DNA of 20,783 bases, from the IMG/VR virus record IMGVR_UViG_3300034683_000282, positions 1 to 20,783 of that record; one strand, written 5' to 3'. This document shows positions 2,377-19,045 of this stretch, one piece after another (the first letter of the stretch is position 1; each line of letters opens with the position of its first letter). Under the pieces are notes generated by a model that made no database searches, had not been told where the DNA came from, and saw nothing but the letters and a program-made list of their open reading frames with translations. The position numbers and the translations under genes are program-made. This DNA is from a virus.

Positions 2377-2663
2377 AGGTCAAGCCCCAATTGAGAGGCG
2401 AGACCAATCTGAGGCCGTCGCCGTTTCTTTACGTCAGATACCGTAGCGGTCTGCTCCTGTCCAGGCACAACCTGAGCAATGTTCTCAAGCTGCAAGTCTT
2501 GAGCGAAGTTTCGCTGGATATTCGCAGCTTGCTCTTGAGCCTGAGCAATGGCAGCGGCAGACTGTTTTTGAGCCTCTGCGATTTGCTTGGCGGCCTTAGA
2601 GGAATCGTCAGAGCCAATTAGCGAACTTACAGCTTTCTTGATGCTTTTCACAACGCCACCCAT
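2373..2663 (-). CDS. T7 gp7.3-like virion/tail assembly protein
   Basis: The gene encodes 96 aa starting MGGVVKSIKKAVSSLIG. I chose the ATG at 2663 because AAGGAG lies 6 nt upstream; an in-frame upstream extension has no ribosome site and would run into the preceding gene. The product has a basic amphipathic N-terminus, an Ala/Gln-rich middle (KQIAEAQKQSAAAIAQAQEQ) likely to be a long helix, and a C-terminus KKRRRPQIGLASQLGLDL. T7 gp7.3 has the same architecture (basic start, low-complexity middle, KKxRxxG...SL...GI end) and the same place just before the portal gene; it is needed for tail assembly and adsorption. The function is inferred from architecture and synteny, since identity in such short proteins is low. 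Confidence 0.7.
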   Translation of the reverse strand: MGGVVKSIKKAVSSLIGSDDSSKAAKQIAEAQKQSAAAIAQAQEQAANIQRNFAQDLQLENIAQVVPGQEQTATVSDVKKRRRPQIGLASQLGLDL

Positions 2664-2673
2664 AGTAGTCTCC

Positions 2674-3132
2674 TTACGCGGCTTTAGAAACAAGTCGATA
2701 GTATTTCAATCGGTAATCCGCAGGGGATTTCCGATGCGTAAAGCACAGCCAAGGGATTCCCTTGGTGGTGCAGTACTCTCTAGCAATCCGCAGAATCTCT
2801 CTCTGCATCATCTTTCCTGCGTTGCTTGCCCTGTACTGCGGCAGGGTATAGCGAAACAGCACAGCAACGCACGGCCCTACATTCCAATCCCACTCGTCCA
2901 GCAGGATATAGGCACCAGCAACGGCCCTGTAGTACTTGTCAAAGCAGTACAGCTCATGCCTCTCGGTCTGCTGCAAGCTCAGTACTTGCACAGCTACCCA
3001 ATTCTCTACTGGCACGCACTGGGCCTCATCTAGTTCTTTCCACGCCTCCCAAAACAGCGTATCGTCAATCAGTAGCTGCCCTGGGTGGCGTAGGAATGTC
3101 TCCAGCCTGATTTCTGATTCCCTTGTCTGCAC
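2674..3132 (-). CDS. Conserved phage protein, possibly GNAT-like acetyltransferase
   Basis: The product is 152 aa. The likely start is GTG at 3132, because AGGAG is 8 nt upstream; a longer open frame to 3243 would lie wholly within the preceding gene. The sequence is rich in aromatic residues (LFWEAWKEL, CFDKYYRAVAGAYILLDEWDW) and the second half reads VAVLFRYTLPQYRASNAGKMMQREILRIAREYC followed by KGIPWLCFTHR. This alternation of a hydrophobic strand, a linker with Ala-Gly-Lys, a long helix and another strand resembles the GNAT acetyl-CoA-binding core, and many T7-like phages carry an acetyltransferase-like gene between RNA polymerase and portal. I see no diagnostic QxxGxG/A motif, so the enzymatic role is a guess. 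Confidence 0.6.
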   Translation of the reverse strand: MQTRESEIRLETFLRHPGQLLIDDTLFWEAWKELDEAQCVPVENWVAVQVLSLQQTERHELYCFDKYYRAVAGAYILLDEWDWNVGPCVAVLFRYTLPQYRASNAGKMMQREILRIAREYCTTKGIPWLCFTHRKSPADYRLKYYRLVSKAA

Positions 3133-3292
3133 CTTTTGTTCTCCTGCGGATGAAGTCCAGCACGCTCTGTTGCCCGTGGTAATGCCTGAGCTGCTGCTCC
3201 GTAGCATTAGGCCCAAAGGCTGTCTGTGGGAATACTTCCTCAAGCAAGGCTAGCTGTGCCAATGAGAAATACACCTTGTCGGAATCTTGCAT
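3065..3292 (-). CDS. Small conserved phage protein, 75 aa, unknown function
   Basis: The product starts MQDSDKVYFSLAQLALLEEVFP and contains NATEQQLRHYHGQQSVLDFI, a pattern I associate with small proteins beside the RNA polymerase gene in T7-like phages. The ATG at 3292 follows TAGGAG, in which TAG is the RNA polymerase stop, so translation is probably coupled. The last 23 codons overlap the next gene in a different frame (3065-3132). The conserved-looking part ends around DFIRRR and the tail (TKGADKGIRNQAGDIPTPP) looks low in information. Either the overlap is genuine or a small indel has replaced the original C-terminus. Function unknown. Confidence 0.65.
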   Translation of the reverse strand: MQDSDKVYFSLAQLALLEEVFPQTAFGPNATEQQLRHYHGQQSVLDFIRRRTKGADKGIRNQAGDIPTPPRAATD

Positions 3293-3300
3293 AGCTACTC

Positions 3301-5868: not shown

Positions 5869-5883
5869 ACCTCTAGCTCCTAG

Positions 5884-6081
5884 TCAAAGACGAATACCGT
5901 GATCGTGCAGGATTTGCACCTGCACCACCTCGGCACGCATAGCATCTTCTTGCCGGATTTCCTCGAGCAAGGCCCTCGCCTTGTTGTACTTGCCTCGCGC
6001 TACAAGGGCTTTGCATTCCGCGCAGCGTACTTGCATGTGCTGCTCTTGCTCGCTCTTACCGAAGTCAAAAGACAGTTGCAT
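5884..6081 (-). CDS. Small protein, 65 aa, unknown
   Basis: The product begins MQLSFDFGKSEQEQHMQVRCAEC and has a single CxxC pair (RCAECKA) followed by a charged helical stretch (KYNKARALLEEIRQEDAMRAE). A lone CxxC could be half of a zinc knuckle in a dimer, but this is only a guess. The start is supported by AGGAG 6 nt upstream, overlapping the TAG stop of the preceding gene (TAGGAG). It lies between the dNTP-hydrolase-like gene and RNA polymerase with 2-15 nt gaps, so it belongs to the same operon. No family recognised. Confidence 0.65.
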   Translation of the reverse strand: MQLSFDFGKSEQEQHMQVRCAECKALVARGKYNKARALLEEIRQEDAMRAEVVQVQILHDHGIRL

Positions 6082-6090
6082 GATGCTCTC

Positions 6091-6537
6091 CTACTCAGAC
6101 AAGTCAATGTGGTAGCCTTGCACGGATTCATTCAGCTCGCGCAGCACCAGCTCGCGCAGCACCAGCTCAAGGTGCATCATTGCGCTACAGGCAGCATGTG
6201 CGGCATGCAGCAGGTTGCTCTCCTTGTCTCGCATATAGGCAGGCTTGCCATTGCATTCCTTGGCCTCTCGCGCTGCATCGAAGATATGCCGCAGCATCGC
6301 TGCTCGATAGCGTTCAGGCTGCACGTACTGCCAAGAGCCTCGCTCATAAGGATTCTGCTTCTGAGTGCAGGCCCACTGCATCACCTCAGCCACCGCATAC
6401 AGAGCAAGGGGCATATCCTCAAGCAAGGTCATGTCGATCTTGCCAGCATCGTCCTTGCGGCCCTTGGGTTTCTCTGTTTCTTCGATAAGATCAAGCAGGG
6501 TTTTCTTTGGTTCTTGTGCATCTACACTCTTGAACAT
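6091..6537 (-). CDS. DUF5664-type dATP/dGTP diphosphohydrolase-like protein
   Basis: The 148-aa protein has the DUF5664 pattern: GRKDDAGKIDMTLLEDMP, then ALYAVAEVMQWA, GSWQYVQPERYRAAMLRHI, and DKESNLLHAAHAACSAMMHLEL. Conserved Asp, Arg-Tyr, Arg-His and His-Ala-Ala-His residues could form an all-helical metal-dependent dNTP pocket. Pfam names this family dATP/dGTP diphosphohydrolase N-terminal domain, partly from Z-genome phages, but it is widespread in ordinary phages. In this phage it may adjust dNTP pools, in keeping with ThyX upstream. Near the C-terminus LVLREL is duplicated by a perfect 15-bp tandem repeat at 6133-6162. The start follows ACCAAGGAG. Substrate is inferred only. Confidence 0.75.
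   Translation of the reverse strand: MFKSVDAQEPKKTLLDLIEETEKPKGRKDDAGKIDMTLLEDMPLALYAVAEVMQWACTQKQNPYERGSWQYVQPERYRAAMLRHIFDAAREAKECNGKPAYMRDKESNLLHAAHAACSAMMHLELVLRELVLRELNESVQGYHIDLSE
6133..6162 (-). repeat. Perfect 15-bp tandem duplication inside the DUF5664 gene
   Basis: The unit cagctcgcgcagcac occurs twice back to back and a third partial copy (cagctc) follows. It is in frame and duplicates five residues, giving LVLREL-VLREL in the protein. Such repeats arise by slippage and can vary between isolates. Confidence 0.9.
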
Positions 6538-6595
6538 CTCTTTCTCCTTGGTAACGACCTCTCAGATCGAGCTATAAGCCGCTAAAAGCCTCTAG

Positions 6596-6612
6596 GGGTA
6601 GCTACCCTACAC
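6596..6612. promoter_or_regulatory. Palindrome GGGTAGCTACCC plus TAC, candidate regulatory site
   Basis: A perfect 12-bp palindrome (6596-6607) sits in the 126-bp gap between endonuclease VII and the DUF5664 gene, right after the terminator in transcription order. A similar sequence, GGGTATATCACCC followed by TAC, lies at 19541-19556. Both read GTAGGGT...ACCC on the transcribed strand. A phage RNA polymerase promoter or an operator are both possible. Two sites are too few to decide. Confidence 0.35.
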
Positions 6613-6619
6613 GGAAAGG

Positions 6620-6642
6620 TAGAAAACGGCTCTAAAGCCGTT
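6620..6642 (-). terminator. Intrinsic terminator after endonuclease VII
   Basis: On the transcribed strand the sequence AACGGCT-TTAG-AGCCGTT forms a 7-bp stem with a 4-nt loop and runs into UUUUCU. It lies just after the endonuclease VII stop codon and before the RNA polymerase block. It would partly separate the replication transcript from the RNA polymerase and structural genes, letting phage RNA polymerase take over downstream. Confidence 0.65.
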
Positions 6643-6663
6643 CTAGAGGCTCCTAGAGGCATT

Positions 6664-7101
6664 CTAGGGTTTTAGCTCTGCCTCAGCCTCTTGCAGCCGC
6701 TGCTTAGCCCTGCGCTTAGCCTGGGCTAGACGCTGCTTCGCCAGGCGCTCAGCTCTGCGCTCCTCTTTGCTCTTGTGCATGGGGTAGAGCAGAGGCTTAC
6801 TAGGGCGCTTGAGGTATTCGAGCATGCGCTCAAGCCAAGCGATAATCTGCTGATAATCCTCGCCAGTCTTTCCCCATCGAGATACGGCATTGGCCACCTT
6901 ACCCTCTGCGCCATTGCATCCCCTGCATAGCACTCCGCGAATCCTGCCGCTTTGGTGATCATGATCGAGCACCATCGCGTTCTTCTCGCGTGGGTCTATG
7001 CGTCCCAAACAGAGCGGGCAAATACCTCCTTGCTCTTTCAAGACACGCAGCGTGTAACTGCGCAGCATGCTACGCGCTAGCTTTCTCTCAGCCTCAGGCA
7101 T
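6664..7101 (-). CDS. Recombination endonuclease VII (Holliday junction resolvase)
   Basis: The 145-aa protein carries the endonuclease VII signature: zinc ligands CPLC (Cys28, Cys31) and CRGC (Cys59, Cys62), and the catalytic DHDH (46-49) followed by SGRIRGVLC. The family resolves branched DNA before packaging and helps degrade host DNA; in phiKMV-like phages it takes the place of T7 endonuclease I. The C-terminal 40 residues are a Lys/Arg/Glu-rich helix (KEERRAERLAKQRLAQAKRRAKQ). The ATG overlaps the exonuclease stop by 8 nt, with GAGGA inside the exonuclease gene as ribosome site, so the two are coupled. Confidence 0.93.
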   Translation of the reverse strand: MPEAERKLARSMLRSYTLRVLKEQGGICPLCLGRIDPREKNAMVLDHDHQSGRIRGVLCRGCNGAEGKVANAVSRWGKTGEDYQQIIAWLERMLEYLKRPSKPLLYPMHKSKEERRAERLAKQRLAQAKRRAKQRLQEAEAELKP

Positions 7102-8020
7102 ATTCTTCTTCCTCTTGTACTTCCTCGAACCAATCAGAATCTGCGCATTCCTCTACAAATTCCCGATTGAGCGGCTCAAGGTCATGCTCAAGCAAGTAAG
7201 CCAGAGCGTTATCTTCAGGGTGCCGCAAAAGCCACAGCAGCCATGCCTCAGCTACTACATTCTGGCGAATGTCTCGGTAAGCTCCTATCACCCGATTGGC
7301 AGCAGCATCCAGCCCCTCGCTTTCACAGCCGTGCAGATACTCCAAGGCAGCCACCGTACCGCAACGCTTTCCATCCAGACGCAGCAGCCCTTGGATATTG
7401 TCAGCAGGGTCTCCTGCCAGCATCTGCGCCCAAAAGTACAGCGGCCCTCTGCCAGAGAGCTTTACAGCCCCTGCATCGGTTACGCGGTACTTCAGGTAGC
7501 CAATAGGCTCAGGCGGTAGCACGATGCCCCTGCGTAGGTCCAGATAGGGCCAAGGGGTCATGCACAGGTCCTTGTCCTCGCTGCAAATAACGCCACGCTC
7601 CTGCAAGGCGTAAGCCTCTTGCATCATGGCATCGTCTGCCTCAAGCAAGCGATTCAGCACTACGCTGTACTCTGGCAGCCAATTCGCCTCGTCAGCTACA
7701 GCCTCTCGCAGAGGCTCTAGCATAGGTGGCTTTGGCTTGCCCCTACGATTCGCTTGGTAAGGCTTTGCAGCACGCACCAGAAACCTGCCGTTCTTCCAGG
7801 AATTGCGAGCTGTTAGATGCACTCTGGCGTACTCTGCTTTCGCCAAGAACATGCGCTTTAGCACCTCTTGCTGGAAGTGCCTGATAGCGGTATCCAAGCG
7901 CTTGCACGTAGCTGCTACGGCATAGGCAATTCCATCCCCATCCAGAATCAGAGTACGCCCTGGGACGCACTCGTTGAATTGATCTGGCAGGGAATCGGTA
8001 TCAATCCCCATTATCAGCAT
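7094..8020 (-). CDS. 5'-3' exonuclease (FEN/T7 gp6-like)
   Basis: Using the ATG at 8020 (GGAG 6 nt upstream) gives 308 aa; a longer frame to 8140 overlaps the upstream gene and crosses the hairpin, so it is unlikely. Metal-binding acidic clusters of the FEN/PIN fold are visible: LILDGDGIAYA near residue 27, EADDAMMQEAYAL, and SEDKDLCM. A helix-hairpin-helix region follows with MLAGDPADNIQGLLRLDGKRCG. The enzyme would remove RNA primers and degrade host DNA for nucleotides, as T7 gp6 does. The acidic C-terminus (DWFEEVQEEEEYA) overlaps the start of endonuclease VII, consistent with joint production. Confidence 0.92.
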   Translation of the reverse strand: MLIMGIDTDSLPDQFNECVPGRTLILDGDGIAYAVAATCKRLDTAIRHFQQEVLKRMFLAKAEYARVHLTARNSWKNGRFLVRAAKPYQANRRGKPKPPMLEPLREAVADEANWLPEYSVVLNRLLEADDAMMQEAYALQERGVICSEDKDLCMTPWPYLDLRRGIVLPPEPIGYLKYRVTDAGAVKLSGRGPLYFWAQMLAGDPADNIQGLLRLDGKRCGTVAALEYLHGCESEGLDAAANRVIGAYRDIRQNVVAEAWLLWLLRHPEDNALAYLLEHDLEPLNREFVEECADSDWFEEVQEEEEYA

Positions 8021-8034
8021 TGCCGTCTCCGTAA

Positions 8035-8050
8035 GGGGCCTAACGGCCCC
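8035..8050 (-). terminator. GC-rich intergenic hairpin, weak terminator or RNA processing site
   Basis: GGGGCC-TAAC-GGCCCC is a perfect 6-bp stem with a 4-nt loop between the DNA-binding protein stop and the exonuclease ribosome site. On the transcribed strand only UU follows, so termination would be weak. A 3'-end stabiliser or RNase III site is equally possible. Confidence 0.45.
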
Positions 8051-8057
8051 ATCCTTG

Positions 8058-8858
8058 TCAAGCCTCAGGTACAGTAGGAATCGAGGGTGCCTTGGGAATC
8101 TTCGGCAGCTTTGGCTTACCTGCCGCAGCTTCCTTGGCATTCCCTTGCTCCGCAGCAGGGGCAGCGGCAGGAGCTGCTACCGCAGCACCATGCTGCATCA
8201 AGAGCTGCTGCAACGGGCTTCCTTGGAAGTCCAAGGCCCCAAGGCAAGCTTCCTGCAAGTAGTTCTTGCTCTTGCCTTGGTACTCGCCCTCGATGCGGAT
8301 GCTATTCCAGCCCTCAAGCGTAGGCTTGTTCCAGAGGAATAGCTTGTACATGCTGTCAGGGGCAGCAGGAATGTCGTAGGGACGGCGAGACACTGGGTCA
8401 AGGGGCGGCAGGAATCCGTCCAGGTCAATGCGATGCACCAGCTCACCCGTGCCGGTTTTCTTATGCACCACCTTGAGCAGAATCGGCTGGCCGAGTAGCT
8501 GCGGGAAAGCACGCGCCGTGCCTTTCCAGTTCAGTTGCTTGAAAATCCGCACAGCACGGCTCTTTTCATTGCGAGACAGCGGCGTGCGGAAAGTGCGCAG
8601 CAGGTACGGGCTGCCATCATCGTGCTGATACCCATCACCCCACAGAGCAAAGCCAAGCACGAACTCAAGCGCGGGCTCTTTGGCCTTTCCAGCGAACTCC
8701 TGGGGCTGCATGCCAAGCTCAATGTACTCCACCAGGCGAGCAAACGCATAGCCCTCAGGCAGCAACGTGCGCTCTCCGCCTGCCGTGGTTTGGGTCATGT
8801 CGATACCAGTTTCCTCGACAGCGGCATCAGCGAATTTCAAAAGGTCTTGCAAAGACAT
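8058..8858 (-). CDS. Probable single-stranded DNA-binding protein
   Basis: The 266-aa product starts MSLQDLLKFADAAVEETGIDMTQ and contains GYAFARLVEYIELGMQPQEF, ALEFVLGFALWGDGY and RIFKQLNWKG. I recognise this arrangement from proteins annotated as ssDNA-binding in phages of this type; it serves the role of T7 gp2.5 by coating the lagging template and recruiting polymerase. The last 50 residues are Ala/Pro/Lys-rich and disordered (AVAAPAAAPAAEQGNAKEAAAG, then PKIPKAPSIPTVPEA), unlike the strongly acidic tail of gp2.5. The start follows GACCAAGGAGA. Position between polymerase and exonuclease supports a replication role; the exact function is inferred. Confidence 0.65.
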   Translation of the reverse strand: MSLQDLLKFADAAVEETGIDMTQTTAGGERTLLPEGYAFARLVEYIELGMQPQEFAGKAKEPALEFVLGFALWGDGYQHDDGSPYLLRTFRTPLSRNEKSRAVRIFKQLNWKGTARAFPQLLGQPILLKVVHKKTGTGELVHRIDLDGFLPPLDPVSRRPYDIPAAPDSMYKLFLWNKPTLEGWNSIRIEGEYQGKSKNYLQEACLGALDFQGSPLQQLLMQHGAAVAAPAAAPAAEQGNAKEAAAGKPKLPKIPKAPSIPTVPEA

Positions 8859-8876
8859 GTCTTTCTCCTTGGTCTG

Positions 8877-9014
8877 TTACTTGCGGAAAAGCTTTTTGAA
8901 GAAGTTACGGGCAGTGTCAGCAGCCGCGGCAACGAAGATGAACACCACAAACGCAAGGCTTATCCAATGCAGCCCTAGGGATTCTACGATATTCCCAATC
9001 GTGCTCTGAATCAT
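8877..9014 (-). CDS. Micro membrane protein, 45 aa
   Basis: This short gene has a strong start: GACCAAGGAG lies 6 nt before the ATG. The product runs MIQSTIGNIVESLGLHW, then a transmembrane segment of about 18 residues (ISLAFVVFIFVAAAADTA), then a basic tail RNFFKKLFRK. The distribution of charge predicts N-out, C-in. It could be a small early membrane protein that affects host envelope or superinfection, or a pinholin-like protein, although lysis genes usually lie in the late region. No homolog recognised. Confidence 0.65.
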   Translation of the reverse strand: MIQSTIGNIVESLGLHWISLAFVVFIFVAAAADTARNFFKKLFRK

Positions 9015-9033
9015 TGTCGTCTCCTTGGTCTAG

Positions 9034-9156
9034 TCAATCTCGCTTCCCCTTACGCTGTAAGTACCCCATGATAAGCACGGTCATGGCTACAGGGGCCATC
9101 AGCATAAGAAACCCAGTATTTACACCTAGCAAATACCACCGCAGACACTCAGGCAT
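9034..9156 (-). CDS. Micro membrane protein, 40 aa
   Basis: The ATG at 9156 overlaps the DNA polymerase stop by 8 nt and has AGGAG within the polymerase 3' end (8 nt spacing), a typical coupled start. The product MPECLRWYLLGVNTGFLMLM continues APVAMTVLIMGYLQ and ends in RKGKRD. It is one transmembrane helix with a basic cytoplasmic tail. It pairs with the 45-aa membrane protein immediately downstream, so the two may act together. No family recognised. Confidence 0.6.
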   Translation of the reverse strand: MPECLRWYLLGVNTGFLMLMAPVAMTVLIMGYLQRKGKRD

Positions 9157-11557
9157 GGAAGTGCTCCTTTTCCAATAGGTTCAGCCCTACCTCGACAGCA
9201 GCAGGGAAAGGCACAGCAAGATCGTAGCCTAGCCTGCGCATCATTTGAGGCAACGATTCCATAATGTATTGCACTGCGCTAGCCACCTCCTTGAGTACGC
9301 TCGTATGCACGTCGAAATACACCGCGTCATGCACTTGATTGATGCAGAACACGCGGCCACCAAAGAAACGCTTTTGCACCAGCCAGCGCACGATAGCGCC
9401 AGATACAGCCTGCACGAAGAATCCGCTTTCGCCTTGGATTGGGTAGTTGCGTAGCTGCGTCGGCTTGAACTGCATAACGCTTATCTTCTGCCCATCTACC
9501 CACTCGGTCTTTGGATACTCGCGGAACTCGTAGCATGTACCGCCAGGGCTTTGCCAGACACCGCGAGCATACACTCGCCAGCGCCCATCTTCGTCCATCT
9601 CGCGGTACAGCTTTTTGCTGGCCTCTACCTTGGCGAATATCTCGCGCTCGTACCATTCCTCGACACCAGGGAACAGGGCTTTCTCTGCGTCGATGAAAGC
9701 CTGGGCTTCCTCGACCGAGCAGCCAGTGCTGAACGCGATACCCTGCGCAGAGGCACCGTACTGATACGCGAAAGACATGGGCTTTATGTCCGTGCGCATC
9801 TTCTTGTAGCGCTTATGCTCAGGGTGCGTCTCGTCCTTGCACTTCTTCAGCACTTCCTCGTAAGGCTCTCCGAGCTTCTTGGAAAGCCTCAGGCAGTGCA
9901 TGTCTATACCCTGTACCAGTGCTTTGCAAAGGGCCTCGTCCTTGCTTAGAGCCGCCAGCGTAACTACTTCGAGGTTACTGTAGTCCGCCTCAAGCAAACG
10001 TCCCTGAGGCTCGCCTCGCTCTAGCGCATCCAAGCATTGCTGCGCAAGGTCTTGCGGGATGATGCCGTGCTGCATGGCGTAGCGCAGCCACACTGCGTTG
10101 TTGAAACGCGATACGAACATGCGCTTGACGTCGCTCGTATCCCCTCGCGGAATGTTCTGAAGATTCGGCTGCTTGCTGCTGAGCCTGCCAGTTACCGTGC
10201 TAGTGCAGTTCAATTGGTGATACACAATGTTATGCTCCGTGCAATACTGGAGCATCCCACTGCGCTTCACTACGTTACCATCCTCGTCCAGTTCTTCCTT
10301 GAGGTAGTAGGTGCCTAGGTCTTTGTCCAGCTTGGCGTAGCGCAGCAGGTCTTGCAGCAGCTCCTTGGTCTCGTCAGAAAACTCTGGACGGGCCAGCAAG
10401 AACTGCAAGGCATCTGCGCCTGTGCTTAGCACTGGACTACCATCTGCCAGCAAACGCTTACCCGAGAAGCGCTGCACGAACTCCTCTCGCACTTCCTTGG
10501 GCAGCTTGCTCAGCGGGACGCATCCAGGCAGCACTAGCTGGCGCTCGTACCAGCGCAGCTTTGGCGTGCTGCTCGCAACCTTTTCGACCTTTGGCAAGCC
10601 TTTGTTCTTACCAGCCCGATAGCGCACCAGGGGACCGTGCTTAGCCTCGATTTCCTCGATGCTCATACCCTGCACTTCTTCGAGAAATACAGCACCGCCA
10701 TCGGCCAGCAGATACGCCTCGCGCTTCTCGTACTTCGGAGTGCCATCTTCCTCAAGCCAGACGTCTTGTACGCGGTACTTGATGGGGCCGCCATACAGCC
10801 AGGCGGACATGCAGTAGTCCGAAGTATCCTTGAACTCGATCTCGCTTGGCAGATTACGCAGTGCCTTGAATTTCTCAGTGAGCGCTTGCAGTTCCTGTTC
10901 GATCTCACGGCGCTGCTTTTCCGCCACCTCAGGGTCTATGCACAATCCGCTGTGCATGCTCAGGCAGACGAACAGCATGCCCTCCATGCGCTCTAGTGCC
11001 ATGTCCAGCATGCCGCGCTCTTGCAGCTCTTGCATCTGGCCTAGGAATACCTTGCGAGTATTCTCGACGTCTCCATCAGGACCAGCAAGGTATTCGAGCA
11101 GCAGGGCAGGGTCAATCTCTGAGGTGAGCTTGCCCTGTTCCCACAGTATCTTTACCCCGTCGACCTTGTGAGAGCCGCCGTACTTTGGCGCTGTGCTATC
11201 AAGACTTGGATAGGTATCCTGCTGATTCGATAGCAGGTACTCAGCATAGGCCGTACAAAACACTCGGCCACCGCTTTCCAGAAAGCGCATAAAGCGATCT
11301 CGCTGATGCCATAGCAGCCACTGCACGTCAAAGGGTGCATTGTGCGCCACCAGAATACCGCCAGGGGTGGCTAGGTCCAGAAACTTAGCCCAGTCCTTGG
11401 CATCCTGCTTGTTCGGGCGATAGATGCTCTGCACCTCGCCATCCAGCGTAGCCCACGCAGAAGCCACCACGAAGTTATCAGGATGCACAGGCGAGGCAAG
11501 CGCACCGTAATACGGGTGATTCTCGACCTCTAAGTCGAACACAACAATCCTGTCCAT
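9149..11557 (-). CDS. Family A DNA polymerase with 3'-5' exonuclease
   Basis: The 802-aa enzyme (T7 gp5 is 704) replicates the genome. The exonuclease domain shows Exo I VFDLEVEN (Asp8, Glu10), Exo II HNAPFD (72-77) and Exo III DGDVENTRKVF (around 161-171). Polymerase motif A is EADYSNLEV with Asp525, motif B is KPMSFAYQYG with Lys592 and Phe596, and motif C is QVHDAVYFD with Asp744. Phe596 is the E. coli Pol I-like choice where T7 has Tyr. Motif C has Ala745 where HDE is usual. The start follows AAGGAG. No 5' nuclease domain is present; that activity is the separate exonuclease at 7094-8020. Confidence 0.95.
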   Translation of the reverse strand: MDRIVVFDLEVENHPYYGALASPVHPDNFVVASAWATLDGEVQSIYRPNKQDAKDWAKFLDLATPGGILVAHNAPFDVQWLLWHQRDRFMRFLESGGRVFCTAYAEYLLSNQQDTYPSLDSTAPKYGGSHKVDGVKILWEQGKLTSEIDPALLLEYLAGPDGDVENTRKVFLGQMQELQERGMLDMALERMEGMLFVCLSMHSGLCIDPEVAEKQRREIEQELQALTEKFKALRNLPSEIEFKDTSDYCMSAWLYGGPIKYRVQDVWLEEDGTPKYEKREAYLLADGGAVFLEEVQGMSIEEIEAKHGPLVRYRAGKNKGLPKVEKVASSTPKLRWYERQLVLPGCVPLSKLPKEVREEFVQRFSGKRLLADGSPVLSTGADALQFLLARPEFSDETKELLQDLLRYAKLDKDLGTYYLKEELDEDGNVVKRSGMLQYCTEHNIVYHQLNCTSTVTGRLSSKQPNLQNIPRGDTSDVKRMFVSRFNNAVWLRYAMQHGIIPQDLAQQCLDALERGEPQGRLLEADYSNLEVVTLAALSKDEALCKALVQGIDMHCLRLSKKLGEPYEEVLKKCKDETHPEHKRYKKMRTDIKPMSFAYQYGASAQGIAFSTGCSVEEAQAFIDAEKALFPGVEEWYEREIFAKVEASKKLYREMDEDGRWRVYARGVWQSPGGTCYEFREYPKTEWVDGQKISVMQFKPTQLRNYPIQGESGFFVQAVSGAIVRWLVQKRFFGGRVFCINQVHDAVYFDVHTSVLKEVASAVQYIMESLPQMMRRLGYDLAVPFPAAVEVGLNLLEKEHFHA

Positions 11558-11633
11558 TTCAGCTCCTTGCTCTAGCCTTTTCTCAACCTATTGCATTTTC
11601 CAAATTCCGTGCTAGAATAAGATCAATTCGTTT

Positions 11634-11644
11634 CCTCCTTGGTC
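11634..11644 (-). promoter_or_regulatory. Orphan copy of the AGACCAAGGAG ribosome-binding module
   Basis: The motif GACCAAGGAGG, the same as upstream of about ten genes here, lies between the 164-aa gene and DNA polymerase, but no ATG with a usable frame follows. A TTG 6 nt downstream opens only four codons. It may be the remnant of a deleted gene. Polymerase has its own site closer to its ATG. The rest of this 134-bp gap holds only the hairpin at 11662-11688. Confidence 0.55.
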
Positions 11645-11661
11645 TGCCTAGCCGCGACCTT

Positions 11662-11688
11662 AGGCCCCTACCAGGGGCCTTTCTTTTT
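11662..11688 (+). terminator. Strong intrinsic terminator facing the opposite way to all genes
   Basis: AGGCCCC-TACCA-GGGGCCT is a perfect 7-bp stem followed on the plus strand by TTCTTTTT, a classic Rho-independent terminator for plus-strand transcription. Every supported gene is on the minus strand, where the hairpin is preceded by an A-tract and has no U-tract after it. It may block antisense transcription, or serve as an RNA 3'-end hairpin on the sense strand. Confidence 0.65.
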
Positions 11689-11691
11689 GCC

Positions 11692-12186
11692 TTACGGCAG
11701 CTCCTCAAACACCCCGTTGCAAATCTCGTGCATCGTCGATTTACTCGGCAGCTCTCCACGCTCATGCAGAATTTGCAGAACTCGGGCAATGCAGCAAGCT
11801 GCATCTTCCGAGCGAGCATTCCGCACGAAATGCACCGCGACGTCGTAGTACTTATCACCTAGCTTCACCGGCGCTTTGTACTGCTTGAAGTCGCTATGCA
11901 CCACGCCGTAGAACGTGTTTCCCACCAGCTCAATGTCGTACTGAGAATATCTCTCAGACGGCGTATCTGGCAGGTGATCTACCCTCGCCAGGAAAGAGAG
12001 CCGCGTGCTGTAGTCGTCATGCAGCAGAGGCACTCTCGGCAGGTACAGCGGGAACATCTCGATGCAATAGCTCGCTGAGCCTAGGATAGTCTCTACCATG
12101 AACTCAGCGGTGTCCCATGCGTCATTGTAGAGCCGCGCTTCATGCACGCTATCCCCCACCTTGGTGGGTTCTACGTTTCCTTTCAT
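11692..12186 (-). CDS. Hypothetical protein, 164 aa
   Basis: I chose the ATG at 12186 (product MKGNVEPTKVGDSVHEARLYN); the frame extends further upstream but into the preceding gene and with no ribosome site. The site here, GAGGATAGGACC, is weak. The protein has YNDAWDTAEFMVETILGSASY, an aromatic-rich middle (RYSQYDIELVGNTFYGVVHSDF) and KYYDVAVHFVRNARSEDAACC. A mixed alpha/beta soluble fold is likely. It is encoded 10 nt after the 286-aa gene and probably cotranscribed with polymerase. No family recognised. Confidence 0.65.
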   Translation of the reverse strand: MKGNVEPTKVGDSVHEARLYNDAWDTAEFMVETILGSASYCIEMFPLYLPRVPLLHDDYSTRLSFLARVDHLPDTPSERYSQYDIELVGNTFYGVVHSDFKQYKAPVKLGDKYYDVAVHFVRNARSEDAACCIARVLQILHERGELPSKSTMHEICNGVFEELP

Positions 12187-12196
12187 GGTCCTATCC

Positions 12197-13057
12197 TCAC
12201 CAAAGCACAAAGCGGAAGAACACGGGACTGCGATACTTGCCTCGACTGTTCTTCTCAAGGTAGCTGAACTCAATCCAAGGGTTGTCTTGGAGCAGGTCAT
12301 AGCCTTCCAGGAACTCCTGAAGTAAAGGCGAAGGCACCAGCACATCTTGCAACAGTGGCTTTCCTGAAGCTAGCTGCACCGAGCAGTAAGTCGAGCCGTC
12401 CTCTGCTATCTCGTCAGAGACGTAGGTGATTTTTGCACGCTCTGTCTGCATCTGCGTAGCCTGCGCCCAGTGCTTGGTATAGCCACGAGCGTACTTGCTG
12501 TCGAACTCACGGAACAGCACCTTGGGATAGCGACGCAGCGTGCTAGCAATGTACCCATACAGTCCTAAAGCGTCTCGAATCTTCTCGTACTCCGACAACG
12601 AATACATGCACTCGTATTCCCACTCATAGACTTGCCGCACGATACGCTCTACGGTCTGCTGGCGAATCTCGAAGCCAGCACGAAGCTTCGGAAGATCAAC
12701 TAGATACCATTCCGCCTCGTTTTCCAGCAGCTCATGCAAGCTGTCATTCTCATCCAGCAGCGCCTTGCATGTCGTCCAATAGTTTTGCAGCACCAGCTCG
12801 CAATCGAACTCGCGTATCTTGAACTCCTCGTAGATGTCGAGGAACATGCTATTGAACTGCTGCAAGTTCCTTACGCGAGTACCATGCTCCGTGCGATACA
12901 CGACAGCATCGGCCATCTTGTCCTTGTCGCTGTAGTCGATGCACTCGGGATTTACCTTGACGTGCAAGCGCACGCCATCATGCGAGGCATAGGCAGCCAC
13001 TGGAAAGCTAAGGCGAACGTCTCGCCAATCATAGGGCACAGCAAGTGTAAATTTCAT
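12197..13057 (-). CDS. Hypothetical protein, 286 aa
   Basis: The product starts MKFTLAVPYDWRDVRLSFPV at 13057, where CCAAGGAG lies 7 nt upstream within the end of the preceding gene; a 13-residue upstream extension is out of register with that site. Visible blocks are VYRTEHGTRVRNLQQFNSMF, a long acidic helical segment (NDSLHELLENEAEWYLVDL, then RQQTVERIVRQVYEWEYECM), and a beta-rich end with GSTYCSVQLASGKPLLQDV. No catalytic motif is evident. The place between the ThyX/cargo block and polymerase suggests a DNA-metabolism accessory, but this is only context. Confidence 0.7.
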   Translation of the reverse strand: MKFTLAVPYDWRDVRLSFPVAAYASHDGVRLHVKVNPECIDYSDKDKMADAVVYRTEHGTRVRNLQQFNSMFLDIYEEFKIREFDCELVLQNYWTTCKALLDENDSLHELLENEAEWYLVDLPKLRAGFEIRQQTVERIVRQVYEWEYECMYSLSEYEKIRDALGLYGYIASTLRRYPKVLFREFDSKYARGYTKHWAQATQMQTERAKITYVSDEIAEDGSTYCSVQLASGKPLLQDVLVPSPLLQEFLEGYDLLQDNPWIEFSYLEKNSRGKYRSPVFFRFVLW

Positions 13058-13058
13058 G

Positions 13059-13424
13059 TCATTCTCCTTGGGCATACGCGCGGTTTTCACTGTCACCGCG
13101 CATATCTTCCAGCCACTTCAGCGCCGCCGCCTTTTCGTCTTCCGTACGACCGCGCTCAATCCATTCCTTCAGCTCGCGCTCGTTTCGGTTCCGGGTCTCT
13201 TCCAGCGCATCCCGCAGCCTCTCCACCTCCGCAGCCAACGCATCGCGTTCGGCGAGCAGGGCCCGGATGGTGTCTGGATCGCATGCGGCGATGAATGCGG
13301 CTTCTGCCGCCGTCTGGCAACAGAACATCGCGTATGCTGCATCATCATCGATGCCCTGCGTCCAAGACTTCGGCGTCGGCCTCATAGCCAACGCCTCGCG
13401 GATATGTCCGTAGCGGTCAGTCAT
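13059..13424 (-). CDS. Ead/Ea22-like phage protein
   Basis: The 121-aa product MTDRYGHIREALAMRPTPKS contains CDPDTIRALLAERDALAAEVERLRDAL, the hallmark of Ead/Ea22-like proteins common in temperate phages and prophages of proteobacteria. The central coiled coil runs about residues 55-90. Function is unknown; the family is variable accessory cargo. Codons are markedly richer in GCC/GCG than neighbours, which suggests recent acquisition. It has its own ribosome site (GGGAGGTGAGCA) rather than the GACCAAGGAG module, and its 3' end supplies CCAAGGAG for the next gene. It overlaps the upstream gene by 8 nt. Confidence 0.75.
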   Translation of the reverse strand: MTDRYGHIREALAMRPTPKSWTQGIDDDAAYAMFCCQTAAEAAFIAACDPDTIRALLAERDALAAEVERLRDALEETRNRNERELKEWIERGRTEDEKAAALKWLEDMRGDSENRAYAQGE

Positions 13425-13698
13425 TGCTCACCTCCCGCGCCTTGAGCATGGCGTCGGCCATAATGTAGGCCGCGGTAGCAATAAGGTCAGGCCCTCTCAT
13501 TTGCATCCTAGCGGTCCAAGCACTTGCTGCACTTCGCTCCCCTTCGTTGAGGGGTTCGGCTATGAGCGCCGCCATCGCATGAGCAGCGAAGTAGTCGCGC
13601 AGGGTCATGCCTCCATAGCCGCTGTCAAATCTGGCGCGGCACTGCTCGTCATTTACCGGCAGCGGAAACGCCGGGCCTCCGTCATTGATTCTATTCAT
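13417..13698 (-). CDS. Conserved phage cargo protein (NDGGPAFP / MTLRDYFAAHAM type)
   Basis: The 93-aa product opens MNRINDGGPAFPLP and contains GMTLRDYFAAHAMAALIA, a widespread small protein of phages and prophages with no proven role. The start overlaps the ThyX stop (ATGA-type) and the ribosome site GACCAAGGAG is inside the ThyX 3' end. Base composition is more GC-rich than the replication genes, matching the Ead-like gene after it. The two probably entered together as a cassette. Confidence 0.78.
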   Translation of the reverse strand: MNRINDGGPAFPLPVNDEQCRARFDSGYGGMTLRDYFAAHAMAALIAEPLNEGERSAASAWTARMQMRGPDLIATAAYIMADAMLKAREVSND

Positions 13699-14381
13699 TG
13701 ATGTTCTCCTTGGTCATTGTCGAAAAACGCCTCAGCGATATTCGGCACTTGCTCTCGCAGCACTTTCTGCACCAGCAGAGCAATCTCCTTGTGCTCGCTT
13801 TGGCTACCCTCAAGGCGCACTTGCACGTAGTGCAGCCAAGAGCGAATCGTGCCTTGCATGTACAGCCTCGTAGGGGTCAAGCCCTCGGGCAGCAGCTTAC
13901 GCGCCACTTCCTTAGCGATGCCTTGGCCTAAGGCCCATTGATACGCAAAGTAACACTCATCCCATACGCGAGTTTGTACGTTCAGCCAGGCATCTTCCAG
14001 CACTACGTTATCGCACGGCACAGAGGCTTGGCGATTCGTAGGGTGCTGCATCCTCGCCTCGCAGAATACAGGGATGCCTGGGACCTCTGCGTATCTTTGG
14101 CTGAACTCCTGAAACGAAAAGCTGCGATGCCGCACGATCTGATGCGCCACCTCTCGCGTGCAATTGATCTCTAAGCACATGCAAGCCATCTCGAAAGGCG
14201 ACCAGTGCTTATGCTTGATGAGATAGCGCAGCAATCGAACGTACTCTCGACTGTCCTGATTCTTGGGATTCGATACCCGTGCCATCCGCGCAATGCGGTA
14301 CTCAGCATCTGGCGTAATCCATTCCAGATGCACACTCGGCACAGAGATGACTTCCCCTTTCGTTCCCTCTAGCTCTAGCAT
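13695..14381 (-). CDS. thyX: Flavin-dependent thymidylate synthase
   Basis: The 228-aa enzyme converts dUMP to dTMP with methylene-tetrahydrofolate, NADPH and FAD. The ThyX signature RHRxxSxxxxSxRY is intact as RHRSFSFQEFSQRY (84-97). SPFEMACMCLEI and the C-terminal RLYMQGTIRSWLHYVQVR also fit the family, the latter giving substrate-binding Arg and Ser. Start is the ATG after AGGAG at 6 nt. It provides thymidylate during replication independently of host ThyA. Neighbours are accessory genes on both sides. Its last codons encode the ribosome site of the next gene. Confidence 0.96.
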   Translation of the reverse strand: MLELEGTKGEVISVPSVHLEWITPDAEYRIARMARVSNPKNQDSREYVRLLRYLIKHKHWSPFEMACMCLEINCTREVAHQIVRHRSFSFQEFSQRYAEVPGIPVFCEARMQHPTNRQASVPCDNVVLEDAWLNVQTRVWDECYFAYQWALGQGIAKEVARKLLPEGLTPTRLYMQGTIRSWLHYVQVRLEGSQSEHKEIALLVQKVLREQVPNIAEAFFDNDQGEHQ

Positions 14382-14395
14382 GATTTCTCCTAGCC

Positions 14396-14773
14396 TCAGA
14401 AAATCACAGAGAGATTCGCCATCTTCGCAAGGTGCGTAATGTCATGGCATATGTCTGCAATGTATGCCGCATGCTTTTCACGCTCCTTATTCAAGGCGCT
14501 CTTGGCAGAGTAGGTAAATTCCCAAGAGGAAATTTCCACCTTGTGATCCCCTGCTTGGACAAGCAAAGAGCCGTCGTTCTTATCAATCCCCTTGCGCAAG
14601 GCATAAGAGCAAAGCACCAGGTGCTTATGCCTTCGCACTTCCTCACGGAGCTGCTCTATCTTCTGCTCAAGCTCCTTGAGGAATTTAAGGGATTCTTTCA
14701 GGGATTCCTCGATAGGGTCTTTTTCCTCATCGGGGATAAGATCAACGTTCAACGAATTGTCATGAGCTTGCAT
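14396..14773 (-). CDS. Hypothetical coiled-coil protein, 125 aa
   Basis: The product MQAHDNSLNVDLIPDEEKD has a charged coiled coil at about residues 20-50 (EESLKESLKFLKELEQKIEQ followed by LREEVRRHK) and a C-terminal part with EREKHAAYIADICHDITHLA. The start follows GACCAAGGAG at 6 nt. It lies between the direct-repeat-flanked cargo gene and ThyX. No family recognised; oligomerisation is likely from the heptads. Confidence 0.65.
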   Translation of the reverse strand: MQAHDNSLNVDLIPDEEKDPIEESLKESLKFLKELEQKIEQLREEVRRHKHLVLCSYALRKGIDKNDGSLLVQAGDHKVEISSWEFTYSAKSALNKEREKHAAYIADICHDITHLAKMANLSVIF

Positions 14774-14777
14774 GATT

Positions 14778-14797
14778 TTCTCCTTGGTCTATCTCGG
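14778..14797. repeat. 20-bp direct repeat, copy A, downstream edge of cargo gene
   Basis: TTCTCCTTGGTCTATCTCGG is identical to 15126-15145. The pair brackets the gene at 14815-15120 and includes the ribosome module of the gene that follows each copy. Confidence 0.95.
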
Positions 14798-14814
14798 AAT
14801 ACTCCGCGGTCGTT

Positions 14815-15120
14815 TCACTTCCACGTTGCTTTGGCGATGGCGGCGCGGGCTGCTTCACGATAAGGTGCTGCGGCAATACTGGCAGTCGATGGTGGGTATC
14901 CGTCGAGTATGCTAGAAGCCCATTTCTCCATCCCTTTCAGTGCTGCCAGCAGTTCAGGAGCGGCGGCTATCAGGCGAGCGTCGGCTTCGTTGTCAATCGC
15001 CCCATAGCGCCCTTCGGCATCTTCAGTTTTCACTACTGCATCGCCAGTCTTGCTTGCATACACTGCGAAGCCATATCGACACCGTTCCACGTTCCACGGT
15101 CCCGGGGTGTGCTGTGTCAT
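14815..15120 (-). CDS. Conserved phage cargo protein (HTPGPW / ADARLIAAAPELL type)
   Basis: The 101-aa product begins MTQHTPGPWNV and contains NEADARLIAAAPELLAAL, a very common accessory protein in phages of proteobacteria, function unknown. The ATG at 15120 follows GACCAAGGAG at 7 nt; the longer frame to 15159 lacks a ribosome site and lies in the helicase end. GC-rich codon use differs from the neighbouring replication genes. The gene is bracketed by perfect 20-bp direct repeats (14778-14797 and 15126-15145), so it looks like a gene inserted by recombination at the shared translation-start module. Confidence 0.8.
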   Translation of the reverse strand: MTQHTPGPWNVERCRYGFAVYASKTGDAVVKTEDAEGRYGAIDNEADARLIAAAPELLAALKGMEKWASSILDGYPPSTASIAAAPYREAARAAIAKATWK

Positions 15121-15125
15121 TTCAC

Positions 15126-15145
15126 TTCTCCTTGGTCTATCTCGG
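15126..15145. repeat. 20-bp direct repeat, copy B, at helicase stop codon
   Basis: Identical to 14778-14797. This copy includes the last codons and TAG stop of the helicase gene plus the ribosome module of the cargo gene, so it is probably the original sequence and copy A the duplicate. Confidence 0.95.
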
Positions 15146-16447
15146 TAGGTCCTCGCCATCCTCGAACTGGCACGTGAGGCTGTCGAACACTACCATTGCT
15201 TGAATGTTACTGGGTTGCCCTGGGGCTTGATACTTGTTCTTCGGTGTGCTCAGGCCCCTGATGCTACTCAGCCTCGGGTCATTGGTACTACCAAGCATCA
15301 GCACCACGTCTGTCGCGCCTTGTATGCCTGTCTTGCTGTCTTTCAGGGCAGACAGCGGCGGATAGAGCATTCCTGCACCCTCCGCGCTGATCTGCACCGT
15401 ACCAACCCCGATGCAGTTATTGCGCACCAGCATCTCGCGCCATTCCTGCCAGAGCTGCTCGATTGCATCAGCCTTGTTTCCTGCTGCCGCACCTTTGGCA
15501 AGATGGAAATTGCCGAGCATATCAGCGATTACGATAGCGGGTTGCTGCGCCTCGATCACTTGCTCGATCTGTGCAAGGGTTGCGCCGTGCATGTCCTTGA
15601 GCTTGAGCTGCTGCGGGTTTCCTACTACGCGAGCGTACTCATCTTTCAAGGTGCCTGCACGATGCCTCTCGATTAGCTGGCTAAGGTCTAGCTTTAGCGC
15701 AGCCGAGTACAGCCTGGGCAAGATGCGCTCTGCGGTGCCCTCGTTGTTCAGCCACAGTATGGGTCTGTCATCGCCTTGCTCCTGTAGTTGTTGCAGAAAG
15801 TCTATGCAGCAAAACGCGAGAAAGCTCGTCTTGCCACTATCTGGACGGGCAGCTACTGCAATGCTAGCGCCAGGCTGAAAAGCCAGCAGACCGTTTCGTA
15901 GCGCGGTAAGACGCCTGAACTTCAGCCCCTTGTCGTTCGCTACGCTATCCAGAATCTCACCAATGTCCTTTTCCAAAGAGGAATCGGGCACTGCGCTGGA
16001 TATAGCCCTAAGCGCTTTCTGCGATAGCAGGTTCAGCTCATAGGCAAGGTCGATTTCCTCACCATTCTGATACCTCGCCACCAGTGCCGCAGCTCTGCCA
16101 GCAAGGTCCAGTTCGTAGAGCTGATGCACAATCCCCTGTATCGCAATGTCAGCTACTGGCTTTCGCAGCAGCTCAATAAGGTGCAGGGCAAGCGCCATTG
16201 CCTCAGGCGAGCTATTCGCAGCACGTAGTTGCACCAGGCTTTTCAGCTCATCAATCTCGATATGTTCCCTCTCGGGAAAAGCCGAGAAATAGACGCCGTA
16301 CCAGCCCAGTAGCGCCACAGTATCCTGCGATAGCATCTCATCCGGCACGCTACTACGCAGCAGACGGAAACGCGCCTTGCTGCGTAGCGCTTGCAGAATC
16401 AGTAGGTCCAGCCCGTCCAGCCTTGCTTGCTGGATGGTCTCAGGCAT
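15137..16447 (-). CDS. Replicative DNA helicase (DnaB/RecA-like, separate from primase)
   Basis: The 436-aa product from the ATG at 16447 carries a Walker A AARPDSGKTSFLAF (Lys206), a Walker B-like stretch AIVIADMLGNF and, later, the conserved GVGTVQISAEGAG and MLGSTNDPRLSSIRGLSTPKNK sensor region of DnaB-type helicases. It unwinds the fork as a hexamer. In T7 helicase and primase are fused as gp4; here, as in phiKMV, they are separate genes. A longer frame to 16504 is rejected because GGAGG precedes the inner ATG, which overlaps the preceding stop by 8 nt. The N-terminal 180 residues are helical. Confidence 0.93.
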   Translation of the reverse strand: MPETIQQARLDGLDLLILQALRSKARFRLLRSSVPDEMLSQDTVALLGWYGVYFSAFPEREHIEIDELKSLVQLRAANSSPEAMALALHLIELLRKPVADIAIQGIVHQLYELDLAGRAAALVARYQNGEEIDLAYELNLLSQKALRAISSAVPDSSLEKDIGEILDSVANDKGLKFRRLTALRNGLLAFQPGASIAVAARPDSGKTSFLAFCCIDFLQQLQEQGDDRPILWLNNEGTAERILPRLYSAALKLDLSQLIERHRAGTLKDEYARVVGNPQQLKLKDMHGATLAQIEQVIEAQQPAIVIADMLGNFHLAKGAAAGNKADAIEQLWQEWREMLVRNNCIGVGTVQISAEGAGMLYPPLSALKDSKTGIQGATDVVLMLGSTNDPRLSSIRGLSTPKNKYQAPGQPSNIQAMVVFDSLTCQFEDGEDLPR

Positions 16448-16697
16448 GCACAGCCTCCAGCTCTTGCTCGAACTTGAGAATCTTCGCAGCCAGTACTCGC
16501 ACATTCAGGCGATAGCGCAGTTCCTCAGCACTCGACGAGCTGTTCAGATAATACGCCAGCCGCTGTGCTACCAGGACATGCAGAGGGTCAGGCCAGATTT
16601 CCTCTTGGCTAGGAACATGCACCAGGTAGTAGCTATCCCCAACGCGTTGCGCAGAGTATGGATAGAACACGGCATCTTTGTCGAAGTACGCTTGCAT
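16440..16697 (-). CDS. Small protein, 85 aa, between primase and helicase
   Basis: The product MQAYFDKDAVFYPYSAQRVG is followed by YYLVHVPSQEEIW and a C-terminal helix (NVRVLAAKILKFEQELEAV). The ATG follows AAGGAGAT closely. Its ribosome site lies immediately after the CRISPR mini-array and the 14-bp repeat at 16713-16726, so array transcription and translation of this gene share one RNA; Cas6e cleavage of the array would separate this mRNA from primase. Location between primase and helicase suggests an accessory replication role. No family recognised. Confidence 0.7.
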   Translation of the reverse strand: MQAYFDKDAVFYPYSAQRVGDSYYLVHVPSQEEIWPDPLHVLVAQRLAYYLNSSSSAEELRYRLNVRVLAAKILKFEQELEAVHA

Positions 16698-16712: not shown

Positions 16713-16726
16713 TCGATTCGCATATC
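16713..16726. repeat. 14-bp direct repeat flanking the CRISPR array, copy A
   Basis: TCGATTCGCATATC is identical to 16856-16869 inside the primase gene. One base separates it from the array's distal repeat. The pair brackets the array plus the last part of primase. Confidence 0.9.
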
Positions 16727-16727
16727 A

Positions 16728-16816
16728 GGTTCATCCCCGCACATGCGGGGAACACTCGAGAGCTTATTCGCTCGACGTTACAACTGGCGGTTCATCCCCG
16801 CGCATGCGGGGAACAC
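16728..16816 (-). CRISPR. Mini-CRISPR array: two type I-E repeats, one spacer, no cas genes
   Basis: Two 28-nt repeats (16728-16755 and 16789-16816) flank a 33-nt spacer (16756-16788), giving the exact 61-nt period of type I-E arrays. On the minus strand each repeat reads GTGTTCCCCGCATG, then C or T, then GCGGGGATGAACC; the two differ at one base. CCCCGC/GCGGGG forms the Cas6e hairpin and the ends GTGTTCC and GGATGAACC are canonical. The base after the upstream repeat is G, as expected from an AAG PAM. The crRNA sense matches operon transcription. The downstream repeat carries the deviation, the usual place for degeneration. No leader or cas genes are seen in the window, so processing would need a type I-E host. 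Confidence 0.92.
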
Positions 16817-17646
16817 TGCAAGGCGAAGGAGCTAGCAAGCTCTCGACGAATGCTGTCGATTCGCATATCTTTTGGGTCTAGCCCATCTGGTGGGCGAATC
16901 CTCAGCACCGGCATGAACAGCCTTTGTCGCTTCCTCAGTTTCTCATATCCTGCATCTCCTGCTGCGTCTGCATCATAGAACACTGCAACGGCAGAGCAAT
17001 TCTGCACGATGCTAAGCACGGCATCGTCCGTTGCATGGCACCCCAAGGTACAGAGCAAAGACACGCCTTGCGCTATCTCTTGGTGCTCTTTCCAGCTTTG
17101 CAAGGCATAGCGCACCTTGTAGAAGCTCAGCATATCTTCGAGCACCACAGCCATACCATGCGGCTCGCTGCTATCCCAAAAGAATCTTGCCTTATCTTCG
17201 AGATTGTAGCGACACCATTTCACTGGGCTTTTCCCAGTGAGGTCTCGCCCCATCCAGATTCGCATGCAAGGCGAGGGAACGAGCAAGCGCCTCTCGCTTG
17301 GGCTTATCAGCGTTGCCTTGGGCAGCATGCACAGGCTCAGCCCTTTTTGTTGCAGGAACATCTCGCATAGTCCGGCATGCACGGAATGCAGCACAGGCTC
17401 AGCATCGCCAGGAAAAGCGCGATTGCTGCTCTCCTTGCTTGGCCTAGAGCTTTGCAACAGCACGTGCTCCTTGTGCCGCACAGCACCTATTCCACAGCGA
17501 TGACAATATGCCCAGTACTTATCAGGGTCATGCCCTATCACCAGGTTCGGTCTATGCTCGCCAGCATGCAGCACTCGCACTTTCTGGCCGATGTACAGCC
17601 GCTTTGCCGTAGCTAGCCAGTCTTGGTCTCGCAAGGTCTTAGGCAT
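16792..17646 (-). CDS. DNA primase (separate, zinc finger plus TOPRIM-like)
   Basis: The 284-aa protein makes RNA primers for lagging-strand synthesis. It has a zinc-finger-like AYCHRCGIG near residue 50, then a TOPRIM-type core: MAVVLEDMLSFYKVRYA with the acidic residue of motif IV, and AVAVFYDADAAGDAGYEKL with the DxD motif. It is the phiKMV-like stand-alone partner of the helicase at 15137. Notably, its final codons (CSPHARG) and TGA come from CRISPR repeat sequence, so the original C-terminus seems to have been replaced or trimmed. It overlaps the upstream 124-aa gene by 8 nt. Confidence 0.9.
   Translation of the reverse strand: MPKTLRDQDWLATAKRLYIGQKVRVLHAGEHRPNLVIGHDPDKYWAYCHRCGIGAVRHKEHVLLQSSRPSKESSNRAFPGDAEPVLHSVHAGLCEMFLQQKGLSLCMLPKATLISPSERRLLVPSPCMRIWMGRDLTGKSPVKWCRYNLEDKARFFWDSSEPHGMAVVLEDMLSFYKVRYALQSWKEHQEIAQGVSLLCTLGCHATDDAVLSIVQNCSAVAVFYDADAAGDAGYEKLRKRQRLFMPVLRIRPPDGLDPKDMRIDSIRRELASSFALQCSPHARG
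16856..16869. repeat. 14-bp direct repeat flanking the CRISPR array, copy B
   Basis: Identical to 16713-16726. Here it encodes the DMRID residues of primase, so this is probably the original copy. Confidence 0.9.
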
Positions 17647-18966: not shown

Positions 18967-18990
18967 GCTTCGCAGCCAGCGCCAGCCGGT

Positions 18991-19045
18991 ACCAGCTAGC
19001 ACCAGCTAGCACCAGCTAGCACCAGCTAGCACCAGCTAGCACCAG
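18991..19045. repeat. 10-bp iteron array, 5.5 copies
   Basis: accagctagc is repeated five times perfectly (18991-19040) with a partial sixth copy. On the transcribed strand the unit reads GCTAGCTGGT. Degenerate copies (gccagccggt, cgcagccagc) precede it. The 10-bp period puts each unit on about the same face of the helix. It could be protein-binding iterons, such as an origin or a regulator site. Confidence 0.95.

Follow-up and report, generated by a model that had tools for sequence, protein, structure and literature searches.

This report concerns a one-spacer type I-E array of clustered regularly interspaced short palindromic repeats (CRISPR) at positions 16728-16816, minus strand, of the virus record IMGVR_UViG_3300034683_000282; 'the window' denotes the whole stretch of DNA that was analysed, 20,783 nt in length. 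A preliminary description made from the letters of the window had placed this array in a phage replication operon between the primase and helicase genes, and gene matches on both sides bear that placement out. The locus contains the following features, in which the protospacer-adjacent motif is abbreviated to PAM, CRISPR RNA to crRNA and open reading frame to ORF.

16789-16816, minus strand: leader-proximal I-E repeat GTGTTCCCCGCATGCGCGGGGATGAACC, with an additional G at 16788; recognised by its fold and by exact copies in cellular I-E arrays.
16756-16787, minus strand: 32-nt spacer CCAGTTGTAACGTCGAGCGAATAAGCTCTCGA (crRNA sense); its plus-strand reading encodes RELIRSTLQL, which is like the primase C-termini of relatives (p ~0.02 in each of two tests).
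16728-16755, minus strand: terminal I-E repeat GTGTTCCCCGCATGTGCGGGGATGAACC; recognised by its fold and by exact copies in cellular I-E arrays.
16837-16846, minus strand: 10-nt exact match TCGAGAGCTT to the PAM-distal end of the spacer, in the primase codon frame RREL, inverted relative to the array (score 12).
16713-16726, plus strand: first copy of a 14-nt direct repeat TCGATTCGCATATC that flanks the array (local p <1/60).
16856-16869, plus strand: second copy of TCGATTCGCATATC, within the primase codons DMRIDS.
16792-17646, minus strand: DNA primase ORF, ending with CSPHARG inside the repeat, from which its stop codon comes.
16440-16697, minus strand: small conserved gene 3′ of the array and before the helicase; homologue of Sphaerotilus phage R1 gp15.
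15137-16504, minus strand: DnaB-like replicative helicase, from protein profile matches.

The two 28-nt repeats were found exactly as first described, at 16728-16755 and 16789-16816, with a period of 61 nt and a single base difference, which is located in the loop; shuffled sequence gave an expectation of 0 repeat matches, and no shuffle reached 2. Each repeat can form the canonical I-E hairpin that had been proposed for it, with a 7-bp stem and a 4-nt loop. The spacer length of 33 nt originally given holds as the length of the gap, but the I-E convention divides the array into a 29-nt repeat and a 32-nt spacer, the 29th repeat base being G (minus strand of 16788) after the leader-proximal repeat and T at the terminal repeat. 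The 7-bp stem, the GATGAACCG 3′ handle and the 29+32 periodicity mark the element as a type I-E array, and the sense of the crRNA is that of the operon, both lying on the minus strand. With its single spacer within a viral genome it falls in the range of virus-borne mini-arrays, which have 1-2. It is not a solitary repeat, as two full repeats stand 61 nt apart; SRUFinder leaves out repeats less than 100 bp apart, treating them as arrays (PMC10651486). Among the 18 window proteins scanned (PHROGs, Pfam, PADLOC) no cas family was recognised, in agreement with the preliminary description, the record probably being a fragment.

The sole other viral contig carrying the window repeat, L003 (8482 nt), comes from a closely related phage: positions 1-1703 of the window correspond to L003 6780-8482 at 96.36% identity and with no gaps. 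The I-E mini-array of L003 differs from that of the window and occupies another locus, next to a dCMP deaminase gene (Pfam PF00383) and abutting the stop of the scaffold gene. The stretch of the window phage that would match this locus falls past the window end, and from the sequences both arrays could belong to one phage genome. All four repeats, two in each array, preserve the stem and the handle. The L003 spacer GAACTACGCTGTATGTTACGCACATGCCTTGT matches the contig's own deaminase gene in 31/32 positions, 310 nt away, and the homology stops at the spacer boundary. Its single mismatch is synonymous (Tyr, TAT/TAC), and the PAM position at the carrier site reads ACG, which one synonymous change in a His codon converts to ATG. 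We infer that the spacer came from a sister strain and that silent differences would protect the carrier. A tblastn match (30%) suggested that L003 has the deaminase gene twice; this was rejected, the signal coming from the spacer alone.

Neither array has the host-like leader of the archaeal SPV type. None is evident at the window array, the leader sides of the window and L003 arrays share nothing evident, and both arrays abut gene 3′ ends. Because phage mini-arrays reportedly lack host leaders (PMC7099407), this absence separates the two arrays from the archaeal subtype only.

The proximity of a spacer to its homologous site is a wider property of phage mini-arrays. When viral contigs were scanned for any two I-E stems spaced as in an array, a pattern that detects only arrays whose stem arms are perfect, 62 stretches were returned. 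Proximity was assessed over 46 phage-contig I-E arrays of 2-4 repeats with 63 distinct spacers, on IMG/VR contigs whose ends may be of provirus or host origin. Each spacer was scored by its best local match, without gaps, in the sequence flanking its own array; flanks of other arrays served as the null. Within 300 nt, 7 matches scoring at least 13 were observed against 0.43 expected, and within 1500 nt, 9 scoring at least 16 against 0.17. Matches scoring at least 15 decayed with distance (9 spacers at 0-750 nt, 3 at 750-1500, 1 at 1500-3000 and 0 at 3000-15000), with ~342,000 positions scanned at 3000-15000 nt compared with ~202,000 nearer than 1500 nt. A nearby homologue was present for 11/61 spacers of arrays with 2-4 repeats, compared with 1/78 where there were at least 5 repeats (Fisher p = 0.0005). 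Where a spacer has a recognisable phage homologue, that homologue is thus strongly concentrated within ~1 kb of the array.

The matched sites fall within or next to core phage genes, among them those for a major head protein (L109), a tail fibre (L119), a major tail protein (L123), a terminase (L128) and a portal (L159), and spacer and site encode similar peptides, such as IMSTHNGADS/VISTHNGIDN and APGIQLLGNL/APSVQLLGNL. Up to 10/32 bases of a site differ from the spacer, and distances reach 1.4 kb. An AAG or ATG PAM stands upstream at 4/10 of the best mini-array sites (L109, L137, L159 and L125); in a wider set of sites, chosen partly after looking, an AWG PAM occurs at 6/13, against a background of 2.75%. 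An excess of third-codon mismatches at the sites (31/77) was not significant as counted, with some frames wrongly set by hand, and is not used as evidence.

Contigs L113, L114, L117, L126 and L131 have an array in common, the second spacer of which matches the same contig in 33/33 positions at 1.43 kb, with no PAM (TGA). Entries L138, L151, L155, L158 and L107 (IMGVR_UViG_3300021978_000001, 437 kb) belong to a very large viral contig along which many short I-E-like arrays are scattered; two of these arrays have a diverged spacer in common. The 4.3-kb contig L050 carries I-E repeats at both ends, an array at one and a single repeat at the other.

In cells, the exact window repeat is present in 43 genome stretches, including Burkholderiaceae, Parazoarcus and Acetobacteraceae, with 16 and 47 copies in two stretches of Parazoarcus communis and 29 in Agrobacterium. 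Fragments near these arrays score as type I-E Cas7 (Cas7e) and Cas5 (Cas5e) in Parazoarcus, and weakly as Cse1 in Agrobacterium. A repeat without any bacterial I-E counterpart would have told against the preliminary description; the window repeat is instead identical to I-E repeats of several proteobacteria. The 612 distinct spacers at cellular loci with the same repeat gave no match to the window phage. Apart from L003 itself, no I-E repeat and no spacer match was found in 28 capsid and 17 helicase relatives, which are too diverged to reveal an empty array site. Among other phages, Klebsiella phage KP13-16 (OP617741.1, 19364-19393) and Salmonella phage KE23 (PP856722.1, 34374-34403) each carry a solitary I-E-like repeat (86.7% over 30 nt), possibly a solitary repeat unit or RNA anti-CRISPR (Racr). 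The I-E-like repeats of Propionibacterium phages were set aside as one common degenerate two-repeat unit with no self-match.

As the primase ORF ends inside a repeat, the array replaces or displaces the native 3′ end of the primase gene. The primases of relatives end 13-19 residues past DPKDM, and in Sphaerotilus phage vB_SnaP-R1 (R1) the primase gene overlaps the next gene. On the downstream side of the window array, a ribosome-binding site and start codon follow the repeat. The 14-nt direct repeat encloses the array together with the last primase codons; it is not a general footprint of mini-arrays, since no such repeat was seen at the others, with the sole exception of L135, where the repeat is itself CRISPR-like. 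Window proteins include an RNA polymerase, DNA polymerase, exonuclease, endonuclease VII, helicase, primase and head-tail adaptor. The DNA polymerase is closest to those of R1 (59.9%) and Macromonas phage BK-30P (58.6%), in Autographiviridae, Krylovirinae. The carrier is thus a phiKMV/T7-like (Autographiviridae) phage, for which 20,783 nt do not make a complete genome, and from its family we infer that it is lytic; its nearest named phages infect Burkholderiales. An Rfam scan of the window gave nothing relevant. A 10-bp tandem repeat, CAGCTAGCAC, present in ~7 copies at 18973-19045 among early genes, is a source of spurious miRNA hits in Rfam.

Type I-E Cascade takes up the crRNA that Cas6e produces, and it recruits Cas3 where a PAM of the AAG/ATG type is present. 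The sequence evidence suggests that the window segment is probably a promoterless I-E mini-array, transcribed as part of a lytic phage's replication operon, by which the phage would lend a crRNA to the host's Cascade-Cas3 for use against relatives. The operon transcript would be processed by host Cas6e, with an expected 61-nt crRNA product that has 5′ AUGAACCG. Carried by host Cascade, this crRNA would direct Cas3 to destroy co-infecting relatives that have the matching allele of the neighbouring gene, and the carrier would be spared by a linked allele of its own that differs in PAM or sequence. The predicted target of the L003 array is a sister dCMP deaminase allele encoding ...CATGGAACTACGCTGTATGTTACG with an ATG PAM, and that of the window array a primase allele ending RELIRSTLQLA. 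Close linkage of array and target would be expected because a phage armed against one allele destroys itself if it does not have the other, and tight linkage would hold weapon and immune allele together through phage recombination.

Several results weigh against this proposal. The spacer search proposed in the preliminary description did not find the protospacer: there is no exact protospacer of the window spacer in IMG/VR (21-mer search) and nothing significant in 50,697 phage records. The L003 spacer likewise has no real match in the viral or phage collections searched, and eleven spacers pooled in a phage/viral search gave no match at E 0.5. The link of the window spacer to its adjacent target, the primase 3′ end, is weak and suggestive. 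Its best near-array match, around TCGAGAGCTT, amounts to 15/18 nt overall (p = 0.021 within 300 nt, p = 0.083 within 1500 nt), and RELIRSTLQL resembles the primase C-termini RELLKGVIHA of R1 and REMILGALK of L088 (p ~0.02, with other spacers and random phage 32-mers as controls); the nucleotide and peptide tests have the REL segment in common, which leaves them only partly independent. The window spacer may have been taken from a diverged relative, at the 3′ end of its primase gene, with the array interrupting the carrier's homologous site. More generally, only the 11/61 mini-array spacers counted above have a nearby homologue, and spacers may come either from a relative or from the carrier's own ancestor.

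The preliminary description had left two roles side by side, exclusion of competitors and clogging of Cascade; the first gains support from the near-self spacer of L003, the general proximity and the retention of PAMs, and the second does not. Clogging corresponds to a Racr, the repeats of which mimic host repeats and occupy Cas6e/Cascade in non-productive complexes, whatever the spacer. I-E-directed Racrs exist and, like the window array, for which no cas gene was recognised, solitary repeat units and Racrs are phage-borne I-E repeats without cas genes (PMC10651486); strong expression of the phage operon would also yield much decoy RNA. Unlike Racrs, the window array has two repeats at exact I-E spacing around a regular 32-nt spacer, and the L003 spacer is clearly derived from a phage gene, being near-perfect to it with a match that ends at the spacer boundary. 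Retention of PAMs and proximity across mini-arrays are not expected of decoys, and a Racr seems an unlikely explanation.

Alternatively, the array could be a passive relic, a host repeat-spacer unit captured by recombination through spacer-protospacer homology and inert since. Phage mini-array spacers are thought to be gained by recombination, not adaptation (Faure 2019, as cited in PMC7099407), the 14-nt direct repeat encloses the window array, and homology-driven capture would likewise give proximity. Carrier sites, however, differ by up to 10/32 bases and lie as far off as 1.4 kb, stem and handle are preserved in every repeat of both phages, and two closely related records have different arrays at different loci; capture of an inert unit is in our judgement improbable.

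A spacer that matches the carrier's own adjacent gene might instead serve self-regulation, its crRNA guiding Cascade to that gene without cleavage and tuning its expression, and mismatches or a poor PAM at the carrier site might permit such binding without cutting. Other carriers have 4-10 mismatches, which in several carriers fall in the seed, a lytic infection gives little time for regulation, and independent support is lacking, which makes this reading very unlikely. An assembly chimera of phage and host CRISPR sequence, raised in the preliminary description and conceivable for a metagenomic contig whose repeat is identical to cellular ones, is extremely improbable, given that the phage operon runs on both sides of the array, that the primase frame enters the repeat with a ribosome-binding site and start codon coming after it, and that L003 is an independent record with a different array elsewhere, its spacer matching a neighbouring phage gene.

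The use of lent crRNAs against relatives may extend further. The T4 endonucleases SegF, SegG and MobE are encoded by promoterless cassettes between genes and target the neighbouring gene of relatives without the cassette, the carrier allele being resistant; cleavage sites of T4 free-standing endonucleases lie hundreds to thousands of bp away (PMC2988022). The phage arrays would similarly be promoterless and intergenic and would target a neighbour, on evidence that is strong for L003 and the array set and suggestive for the window, with a guide RNA and host nuclease in place of an encoded endonuclease. By this analogy the arrays might be RNA-guided homing elements, a reading less probable than not: a Cas3 break in array-free relatives would be repaired from the carrier, which would copy both array and immune allele and let the array spread in the manner of a T4 free-standing homing endonuclease, though it encodes no nuclease. 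Degradation by Cas3 may leave little to repair, which weighs against the homing step.

Most known virus-borne mini-arrays come from prophages and non-lytic archaeal viruses; the carrier of the window array is a lytic phiKMV/T7-like phage, and a near-identical record holds a sister array. That viruses carry such arrays was already established (PMC6858448, PMC7099407, PMC11656645), as in the archaeal portogloboviruses SPV1/SPV2 (Medvedeva et al., 2019, PMC6858448). Like those of SPV1/SPV2, the phage arrays have 1-2 spacers, no recognised cas genes and repeats like those of cellular arrays; SPV1/SPV2 spacers target close relatives at sites near the array, with self-sites mutated, and such proximity is seen in phage mini-arrays too. 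In contrast to SPV1/SPV2, the window array has bacterial I-E repeats, a lytic phiKMV/T7-like carrier, no leader, probable transcription from the operon and a target not found in the collections searched. The phage and prophage mini-arrays of Faure et al. (2019), as far as they are described in PMC7099407 and PMC11656645, are likewise located in phages, with leaders unlike those of the host and spacers against related viruses. Array-target proximity was remarked upon in SPV1/SPV2 and left unexplained (PMC6858448), and is here measured over 46 phage arrays; a limited literature search, which did not cover Faure et al. (2019), found no paper measuring it in phages or proposing homing. The proximity found in phage mini-arrays makes the question testable, as one of weapon-immunity linkage or of homing, and homing, if true, would explain an array-target proximity that has been open since 2019.
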